This document shows, in pieces, positions 2,489 to 48,549 of a stretch of DNA of 50,712 nucleotides. The notes beneath the pieces are model-generated. The model was not told where the DNA came from, searched no databases, and was given only the letters and a program-made list of their open reading frames with translations. The stretch is taken from NCBI GenBank assembly GCA_947372105.1, contig CANBSH010000014.1, positions 1 through 50,712 on the forward strand, in the 5' to 3' direction. The translations under genes and the position numbers were made by a program. Within the stretch, counting starts at the first letter, position 1; each line of letters begins with the position of its first letter. The DNA is from Chitinophagaceae bacterium. GTDB lineage: Bacteria; Bacteroidota; Bacteroidia; Chitinophagales; Chitinophagaceae.

Positions 2489-2552
2489 AACAAGTTAGCT
2501 ATAAAAATGTTTAATATTTATAAATGAATGTCAACAAAAGCGGACCTGTTTA

Positions 2553-2731
2553 TGGGATTGTCGTTCTCGCTTTGCTCGAACGACTTCCCTAAATGGCGTC
2601 CTTATCCAAAGCTTTTCAACGAAACGCTTCGCGTTTCGTTGGCTTTTTTTACGCTCATCCACTCAATCAAGCAAGCTTGTTTCGCGGCCTCGCATAAAAA
2701 AAGCTCCGACTTGCGTCGAAGCTTTGTGGCC
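2553..2731. repeat. tRNA-trailing hairpin unit, distal copy A (179 bp)
   Basis: This is the first of two tandem 179-bp units; copy B begins at 2732. They are nearly identical except inside the first hairpin. Copy A holds hairpin 1 (2560-2584, stem GTCGTTC/GAACGAC), hairpin 2 (2617-2641, an 11-bp stem closed by TTC and followed by seven T on the plus strand) and hairpin 3 (2700-2725, an 11-bp stem that reads as a terminator on the minus strand). It ends in GTGGCCTGGG, which resembles the GTGAACTGGC that carries the 3' end of the tRNA-Lys gene. Open frames across it are low-complexity artefacts. Confidence 0.85.
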
Positions 2732-2910
2732 TGGGATTGTCGGCTTCACTTCGTTGCGCCGACCTCCCTAAATGGCGTCCTTACTCAAAGCTTTTCAACG
2801 AACCGCTTCGCGTTTCGTTGGCTTTTTTTACGCTCATCCACTCAATCAAGCAAGCTTGTTTCGCGTCCTCGCATAAAAAAAGCTCCGACTTGCGTCGAAG
2901 CTTTGTGAAC
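2732..2910. repeat. tRNA-trailing hairpin unit, proximal copy B (179 bp)
   Basis: This second copy directly abuts and slightly overlaps the 3' end of tRNA-Lys. Hairpin 1 (2739-2763) pairs GTCGGC with GCCGAC, so it keeps its stem although the bases differ from copy A. Hairpin 2 (2796-2820) carries one mismatch (AACC for AAAC). Hairpin 3 (2879-2904) is identical and acts as the tRNA terminator. Together with copy A it fills the gap of about 420 bp between the SOUL gene and the tRNA; I see no protein gene there. Confidence 0.85.
2875..2904 (-). terminator. Intrinsic terminator of tRNA-Lys
   Basis: Read on the minus strand, AAAGCTTCGAC pairs with GTCGGAGCTTT around a GCAA tetraloop (11 bp, one G-U pair), followed by seven T. 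It starts one base after the tRNA 3' end. The same structure recurs in copy A at 2696-2725. Confidence 0.85.
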
Positions 2911-2978
2911 TGGCTGGGACTCGAACCCAGGGCCCATACATTAAAAGTGTATTGCTCTACCAACTGAGCTACCAATTC
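2906..2978 (-). tRNA. tRNA-Lys (anticodon UUU)
   Basis: A 73-nt cloverleaf. The acceptor stem GAATTGG/CCAGTTC pairs over 7 bp with one G-U, and the discriminator base is A. The D-arm contains AGCTCAGTTGGTAGAGC. The anticodon stem ATACA/TGTAT holds loop CTTTTAA, so the anticodon is TTT. The T-arm CTGGG-TTCGAGT-CCCAG is perfect. The 3' CCA is not encoded. A promoter lies just upstream and a terminator just downstream, so the gene is transcribed alone. Confidence 0.97.
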
Positions 2979-48231: not shown

Positions 48232-48302
48232 GGTCCTGTGGCCGAGTGGCTAGGCAGAGCTCTGCAAAAGCTTCCACAGCGGTTCGAATCCGCTCGGGAC
48301 CT
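48232..48302 (+). tRNA. tRNA-Cys (anticodon GCA)
   Basis: A 71-nt cloverleaf. The acceptor stem GGTCCTG/CGGGACC pairs over 7 bp with one G-U, and the discriminator is U73, a Cys identity base. The anticodon stem GAGCT/AGCTT holds loop CTGCAAA, so the anticodon is GCA. The T-arm AGCGG-TTCGAAT-CCGCT is perfect. CCA is not encoded. A terminator begins seven bases after the discriminator. Confidence 0.97.
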
Positions 48303-48308
48303 CGATAC

Positions 48309-48343
48309 AAAGCCTCCCCCGATGAAACGGGGGAGGCTTTTTT
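48309..48343 (+). terminator. Intrinsic terminator of tRNA-Cys
   Basis: AAAGCCTCCCCCG pairs with CGGGGGAGGCTTT over 13 bp around ATGAAA and ends in six T. Confidence 0.95.
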
Positions 48344-48390
48344 GCTTTGAGGCGGTGTCGAAAGCTTGCTTTCGTAAACAGAGGAAAAGC

Positions 48391-48434
48391 AAAAAAGCCC
48401 ACCAAGAAACAAAGTTTATTGGTGAAAAGGCTTT
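48391..48434 (-). terminator. Terminator-like bulged hairpin on the minus strand
   Basis: On the minus strand AAAGCC-TTTT-CACCAA pairs with TTGGTG-GGCTTT and is followed by TTTTTT. The TTTT bulge matches that of hairpin 2 after tRNA-Lys (AAAGC-TTTT-CAAC/GTTG-GCTTT). No gene obviously ends here on this strand, so its target is unclear. Confidence 0.45.
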
Positions 48435-48549
48435 GGGTAAGACGAGATTGTCGAGCGGAAGGCATCGAGCAAAGCAAGATGCCCATCCTGAATTCAGATC
48501 TAAATATATTTAAGAAACAATTCCTTTACTTTGCATTGAATTCCAACTC

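Follow-up and report, generated by a model that had tools for sequence, protein, structure and literature searches.

Mobile DNA in bacteria frequently inserts at tRNA genes. The rtT/tyrT locus of Escherichia coli, one enterobacterial tRNA locus, carries a tandem repeat of ~178 nt behind the tRNA, each repeat with a tRNA 3′ end (~19 nt), and Rfam includes an RtT model. Casposons are gene-bearing, and in one case the 3′ end of a tRNA gene was duplicated on their insertion. REP/BIME sequences are short repeated hairpin elements 3′ of genes that form modular arrays and are linked to RAYT transposases, and integron attC sites are structured repeats at cassette junctions with RYYYAAC/GTTRRRY core boxes and an integron integrase. 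According to passages of PMC4383910, integrative islands restore the 3′ end of the tRNA gene and leave the displaced end fragment at the far side, and the sizes of Islander islands peak at 13.6 and 39.9 kbp. In PMC10872708 the size of tycheposons is given as 4–200 kbp, and freshwater Methylophilaceae are described as having an island marked by repeated copies of the final 20 bp of tRNA-Lys.

The DNA analysed here (the window) is a stretch of 50,712 nucleotides from a Chitinophagaceae bacterium whose genus is probably at or near Sediminibacterium. It contains two tRNA genes and no others by ARAGORN, tRNA-Lys(TTT) at 2905..2978 on the minus strand (also Rfam RF00005) and tRNA-Cys(GCA) at 48232..48303 on the plus strand, and these two were the only window matches at or above the gathering cut-off of the 4227 Rfam models. 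Three copies of one element follow them, two in tandem behind tRNA-Lys (2553–2731 and 2732–2910, 179 nt each, 91% identical) and one behind tRNA-Cys. The first-pass annotation had described the same series behind both tRNAs, and AAGCTTGCTT, an A-run, GAAAAG(G)CTTTGrrTAAG and a next hairpin are indeed present in all three copies, the loop GAGCAAAGCrA being common to the distal tRNA-Lys copy and the tRNA-Cys copy. Its division of the tail into a terminator, a AAGCTTGCTT stretch and a bulged hairpin as independent modules has to be given up, as these correspond to P2, to the tip of P3 and to P4 within a single four-way junction that P1 closes. Neither this junction nor the tRNA-end copies described below were part of that first reading.

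The element features a core of ~120–135 nt (~130 nt in the window), which is a four-way junction of helices P1–P4 that includes a terminator-like hairpin, with a further hairpin, P5, after the core. P1 (ACAAAGCY/GCTTTGrG) closes the junction, P2 is the upper portion of the terminator-like hairpin, and P3 starts with the T-run paired to the A-run and ends in a GCTTGC tip. All three window units fold alike in the tRNA direction. The pairing can be written in terms of four segments, 1 (AAAGCC), 2 (GGCTTTTTT), 3 (AAAAAAGCC) and 4 (GGCTTTG), so that pairing of 1 with 2 gives a terminator-like hairpin for the tRNA, and pairing of 1 with 4 together with 2 with 3 gives the junction.

On the minus strand behind tRNA-Lys, the core of unit 1 spans 2778..2907 and scores 131.3 bits with R1, a covariance model built from seven units of this genome, among them all three window units. 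Its terminator-like hairpin (the 5′ strand of P1, P2 and the T-run) lies at 2875..2905, the 3′ strand of which also takes part in P3, and its P5 hairpin (GGGAGG...CAATCCC) lies at 2733..2768. The core of unit 2, the tandem copy at 179-nt spacing, spans 2599..2728 on the same strand (133.4 bits) and is followed by a P5 hairpin with loop GAGCAAAGCGA at 2554..2589 (pattern match 2555–2588; reversed-pattern control 0). The core of the tRNA-Cys unit lies at 48306..48443 on the plus strand (131.9 bits), with a P5-like hairpin, loop GAGCAAAGCAA, at 48457..48488. For each of these three units none of 200 shuffles was as stable, with fold z-scores of −4.7 for unit 1, −7.2 for unit 2 and −6.9 for the tRNA-Cys unit. 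An open frame of 126 aa (2528–2908, plus strand) runs across the tRNA-Lys tail on the strand opposite to the tail and is most likely spurious.

Integrative islands and tycheposons share with this element the logic of a regenerated gene with a displaced fragment, but they carry genes, whereas the unit described here is ~150–180 bp, non-coding and structured. The likeness to casposons lies in the duplication of a tRNA 3′ end, the difference being that casposons are gene-bearing and the unit is gene-less. Like REP/BIME sequences the element is short, hairpin-bearing and arrayed, but it is tied to tRNA ends and has a large branched core. As in attC, structure is kept while sequence varies; the present element differs in being tRNA-anchored, in having a four-way junction and in carrying a terminator. 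We consider it reasonably probable that these units form a family of ~150–180 bp non-coding insertion elements of Bacteroidota in the 3′ ends of tRNA genes.

In the genome that contains the window, R1 gave 13 rows at E below 1e-4 among the 150 of 807 candidates scored. They represent 12 places, since the end of contig C23 and the start of contig C41 show one tRNA-Gln tail; the tail is identical at both contig ends and the two contigs probably overlap. Eleven of the 12 lie behind a tRNA and show no island-type end, namely Lys (twice), Cys, Arg-TCT (twice, the second being a weak and partial match), Leu (anticodon GAG as read), Leu-CAA, Ser-GGA, Pro-GGG, Gln-TTG and Ser-TGA; the remaining place, on contig C26, has no tRNA. 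The model thereby recovers four tRNA tails outside its training units (Ser-GGA, Gln, Pro-GGG and Ser-TGA), and because of these matches and the fold z-scores the resemblance between the tails exceeds chance. The element stands behind 9 of the 31 tRNA matches of this genome, and most of the remaining tRNAs, judged by eye, have an ordinary terminator or lie within an operon. The exact P5 pattern is found at 6 sites in the genome, all of them on contigs that carry the Lys, Pro-GGG and Leu-CAA tails (reversed control 0), and one of these sites is ~0.9 kb from the Leu-CAA unit. The possibility that P5 is a REP sequence was rejected on account of the small number of exact occurrences and of the Y1 transposase family (PF01797), for which no match at E up to 0.01 was obtained in this genome (97.9% complete); run on 14 control genomes, this search gave matches in 6.

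The covariance-model search proposed in the first-pass annotation found more copies near tRNAs, the opposite of the outcome that it had named beforehand as refuting its claim. Matches at E up to 1e-3 occurred in 36 of 60 genomes, comprising 33 of 37 congeneric genomes (the window's own included) and 3 of 23 outside the genus. A second model, R2, was built from 70 units and gave matches at E up to 1e-4 in at least 88 of 394 genomes and at least 37 of 101 genera of the family, and in at least 19 of 395 genomes and at least 16 of 170 genera in a search of the phylum, where eight families besides that of the window were represented; both sets of counts are lower bounds, with at most 8 candidates scored per genome. 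Within the same genus, the family search with R2 matched 7 genomes and left at least 3 unmatched. Linkage to tRNA is seen throughout: a same-strand tRNA directly adjoins 47 of 60 congeneric units chosen among the matches listed, 42 of 70 units at loci from a pattern scan and 42 of 65 rows of a mostly distant set. The pooled collection has 205 unit rows, with 191 distinct sequences; in 135 of the rows ARAGORN finds an intact tRNA next to the unit, and 41 abut tRNA 3′-end sequence alone, a class in which tRNAs interrupted by an intron or truncated at a contig end are counted. Of the remainder, 12 are at one class of conserved island end, 2 at contig edges and 15 elsewhere, the last including later members of tandems (such as the second tRNA-Lys unit) and several weak matches. 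Measured from the annotated end of the tRNA, the match starts at one constant distance in 100 of the 135 abutting rows. The tRNAs that host units span many isoacceptors.

The proposed fold is conserved among 70 aligned units (69 distinct rows). All 44 of 44 pairs show two-sided changes in at least one sequence; 95.0% of the cells are paired, as compared to 67.9% on shuffling and at most 49.8% with the partners slid, and the covariation score is 0.613, falling to 0.152 after shuffling and to 0.102 at most with slid partners. Cell counts are inflated by relatedness, and the alignment had itself been fitted to the fold; the counts of pairs and of pair types, described as less prone to this inflation, also lie above those of all 500 shuffles. 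Several copies have an interrupted T-run with corresponding changes in the A-run, and the pairing of segments 2 and 3 is therefore kept even where the terminator is weakened.

In order to decide which strand folds, we compared G·T with A·C mismatches, on the reasoning that a fold of the sense strand tolerates G·T better than A·C whereas symmetry at the duplex level would treat both alike. Over 121 clusters there were 143 G·T and 38 A·C cells, distributed as 70/6 in P3a–c, 31/7 in P4, 25/10 in P2, 9/5 in the P3 tip and 8/10 in P1, so that P1 shows no G·T excess and the P3 tip little. When the helices were seeded with Watson-Crick pairs only, the ratio was 39/1 in P3 toward the tip (7 other mismatches) and 16/2 in P4 (23 other), and P3 outward of the seed gave no signal (2/1). 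This repeat served as a check for alignment bias and gave an unchanged result for P3 toward the tip and for P4. Because G·T mismatches outnumber A·C in P3 and P4, the tRNA-sense strand is the one that folds and on which these two helices are constrained, which fits RNA and is also compatible with folded single-stranded DNA. The idea that P4 is a terminator of the opposite strand was likewise rejected, as it predicted more A·C than G·T on the sense strand and the reverse was found.

A T-run of at least 5, as in intrinsic terminators, is present at unit positions 21–60 in 91 of 121 clusters. P2 carries a GNRA loop in 41 of the 99 clusters scored, P3 ends in GCTTGC or GCTCGC tips in 90 of 121, and P4 loops are often C(GNA)G, i.e. 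GNA triloops; these loop types do not settle whether RNA or DNA is the folded form. P5 is of a GATC...AATC type in 44 of 205 rows, in which the 5′ arm is complementary to AATCNN at the first variable position in 39 of 44 and at the second in 25 of 44 (plus 7 G·T), counts that have no control and of which the first reflects a mostly constant G-C. These counts lend modest support to a resemblance of P5 to a T-arm.

In some relatives P5 runs on into a copy of the 3′ strand of the T-arm and the 3′ end of the tRNA. Exact copies of at least 13 nt of the unit's own tRNA end are found in 18 of the 135 abutting rows, two of which (L324 and L340) are one place, as against 0.2% in a control with the ends of other tRNAs. 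A 17-mer test, running from A58 to nt 74 of the tRNA (control 0.1%), finds the full 17/17 copy with P5 leading into it in 11 of 42 rows of the mostly distant set, the full 17 nt being missing in the other 31. By eye, an ordinary terminator follows the end copy in L297, L300, L305, L310 and L311 and a whole or partial unit follows it in L304, L308 and L309, and neither was recognised in L313, L326 and L339. End copies are scarce in the genus of the window, where 13/17 matches are reached in only 3 of 93 rows of two congeneric (Sediminibacterium) sets, and the insertion reading there therefore rests on relatives. In the window itself the 17-mer test gave no intact tRNA-end copy anywhere, including after the P5-like hairpin of the tRNA-Cys unit. 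The stretch AATCCCAGGCCAC between the tRNA-Lys units (2726..2738, minus strand) is by eye a possible decayed copy of the tRNA-Lys 3′ end, AGTCCCAGCCAGTTCAC; an ungapped comparison of the two gives 9/17, which is the control level, and the likeness needs a gap. On the insertion reading, the window units would be old members whose end copies have decayed.

The arrays stand out. In L348 a Leu tRNA is followed by three identical 159-nt repeats, in L349 another Leu tRNA by four 172-nt repeats, and in L350 an Arg tRNA by four nearly identical 153-nt repeats, with the 17-nt end in each repeat; L351 has two full repeats and one partial repeat carrying the tRNA 3′ end. These four arrays resemble rtT in that tandem repeats lie behind a tRNA, on the tRNA-sense strand, each with a tRNA 3′ end. 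The rtT repeats, on the other hand, are not known to have a four-way junction shared among many tRNAs, as the element described here does, and the name RtT was not matched in Rfam searches of the window, of its unit regions or of the L348 unit.

Sites without the element were sought for one carrier, L300, by searching its end copy, terminator and flank in 42 genomes of its genus. Nine of the 42 were matched, mostly over 44–58 nt at 79–88% identity (L363 over only 22 nt), and in five of the seven matched loci examined tRNA-Glu runs directly into a terminator. No R2 match was present in these five loci. L356, L358 and L360 have terminators similar to the one found after the unit and end copy in L300, whereas that of L363 is dissimilar, and what the empty-site genomes share with L300 is the tRNA end and terminator, not long flanks. 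A regenerated tRNA with a displaced 3′-end fragment is found in part of the units of relatives and not in the window. The view that the tails belong to a mobile or functional structured family and did not arise by gene duplication thus gains support on both counts, with covariation speaking for structure and the tRNA-end copies and empty sites for mobility.

If the units are indeed insertion elements, a complete copy would comprise the core right behind the tRNA, a T-arm-like P5 and a 17-nt copy of the 3′ end of the host tRNA, the core being a sense-strand four-way junction, usually with a terminator-like hairpin and T-run. Insertion would take place at the T-loop, as in a tRNA-targeting integrative element, with the new copy coming to lie between tRNA and native terminator, and the tRNA sequence brought or duplicated by the element would keep the tRNA whole. 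The core hairpin would then end transcription of the tRNA in place of the displaced terminator. Read-through transcripts may refold in vivo from the 1-2/3-4 to the 1-4/2-3 pairing and so form the junction, which could give the read-through RNA a defined, protected or processable end; P2, however, forms ahead of the synthesis of segments 3 and 4, and most transcripts may therefore never fold the junction. A recombinase presumably acts in trans, either a tyrosine recombinase using the matching end or an enzyme making a fixed 17-bp target duplication. The likeness of P5 to a T-arm speaks for the former route, and the latter would account more easily for how one core has reached many tRNAs with a matching copy each time. 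Units of 153–179 nt leave no room for an integrase and none is present within the element; no recombinase could be linked to the mini-elements, and movement was not observed.

From one congener to the next, similar tails are found again behind the same tRNA, and long vertical retention and a function for the host are therefore likely. The same observation favours a different account, in which the tail is a structured 3′ trailer owned by the host, acting in termination, processing or as a small RNA, that was multiplied by tandem duplication as in tyrT/rtT and for which the 17-nt copies are by-products. The sense-strand folding bias, the GNRA loops of P2 and the recurrent P3 tips, as well as the identical or near-identical tandem units, likewise speak for such a trailer. 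We nevertheless regard it as unlikely, as one core is found behind many unrelated tRNAs and yet the end copy matches the local tRNA, five tRNA-Glu sites lack the core, and duplication in place leaves the spread of one core to many tRNAs unexplained.

Units without a tRNA often mark the ends of gene islands. In genome G008 three units lie behind tRNA-Met, one adjoining the intact tRNA and two preceded by a tRNA 3′ half from the anticodon loop, and two tandem islands (L275, G008 C21:83500–103400) are bounded there by the tRNA 3′ half plus a unit; their cargo, named from ORF translations, is a multicopper-oxidase segment and a nos (nitrous oxide reduction) cluster. This genome has two tyrosine-recombinase matches, neither of them on the island contig. 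In genome G014 an AraC/SDR segment and a Fic gene, again named from ORF translations, lie between three units that follow tRNA-Glu. The tRNA-Glu class of island ends, to which the unit on C26 of the window's genome belongs, shares a conserved stretch of ~60 nt joined to the unit (L274 on G014 C53, L276 on C26, and L277), and the L274 cargo includes, by eye, Fic-like, AraC-like and toxin-antitoxin-like genes. The conserved stretch reads like a protein C-terminus on the opposite strand and may be simply a conserved island end. An island reading for all copies was rejected, many units abutting an intact tRNA without an island end, and the link to islands is kept as secondary.

The units at cargo junctions in the arrays behind tRNA-Glu and tRNA-Met suggest a further explanation, namely that the core is a folded single-stranded DNA site comparable to attC, with a junction recognised by a recombinase and serving as an attachment site for cassettes and islands. 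G·T is tolerated in DNA too, and the GNA triloops frequent in P4 are very stable in DNA. This explanation seems to us improbable, however, given that no island-type end accompanies the 11 of 12 places in the window's genome that lie behind a tRNA, that the GNRA and CTNG loops, like the transcribed location, agree with RNA at least as well, and that no recombinase was identified. Least probable is that the units are two convergent intrinsic terminators with similar stems, the junction being incidental or kept by template switching between inverted repeats. In its favour, segments 1-2 yield a terminator-like hairpin and segments 3-4 another on the opposite strand, the T-run is frequent, and the models also recognise the units, with lower scores, on their reverse strand. 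Against it, P3 extends past the T/A tracts with the 39 to 1 G·T bias, the excess in P4 is opposite to that expected of a minus-strand terminator, and interruptions of the T-run are matched by changes in the A-run in several copies.

Searches for a known counterpart of our favoured insertion element gave little. At E up to 5, the unit regions of the window and L348 had only Rfam matches far below the cut-off. Neither the window unit nor the L348 unit was matched in phages, plasmids gave no match for the window unit, and a 17-mer scan of viral contigs returned 7 stretches, none with an R2 match or a tRNA. No recurrent structured non-coding element at tRNA ends was found among the titles and abstract starts of open-licence literature, and the tRNA and Bacteroidetes passages of PMC2864571 describe no such motif. 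The element differs from known tRNA islands in being gene-less, ~150–180 bp long and strongly structured. If the insertion reading is right, a conserved structured module of inserted DNA, and not a plain terminator, stands at the end of many tRNA genes of Bacteroidota, which bears on the formation of tRNA 3′ ends, on how islands find tRNAs and on annotation, and makes testable the site-specific movement of ~160 bp non-coding structured elements. A wider reading, tentative and rather unlikely, is that of a phylum-wide class of gene-less mobile elements whose body is one structured RNA or folded DNA strand of ~150–180 nt and which, helped in trans, would enter many tRNA genes at the T-loop, rebuild the tRNA end, supply a terminator, multiply in tandem and dock larger islands at tRNAs.

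A few observations were made on the surroundings of individual units. In L120 a group I intron directly ahead of the unit apparently divides a tRNA-Leu gene (RF00028, 44.3 bits, E 4.2e-10, gathering score 50), and in L131, L234 and L206 a tRNA-Leu is similarly split, as judged by sequence likeness only; none of the four loci has an intron match at gathering level. In the window's genome a tyrosine-recombinase gene (C17:18846–20687, XerD-like by naming) lies within ~1.5 kb of the unit-bearing tRNA-Leu(GAG), and such a gene lies within that distance of it in five genomes, this one, G008, G013, G014 and G033. A recombinase gene of 384 aa is found ~1.2 kb beyond the tRNA-Met unit of L345, with one ORF between, and one of 419 aa is 0.2 kb from the unit of L346, which is preceded by a tRNA-Arg-like 3′ end.
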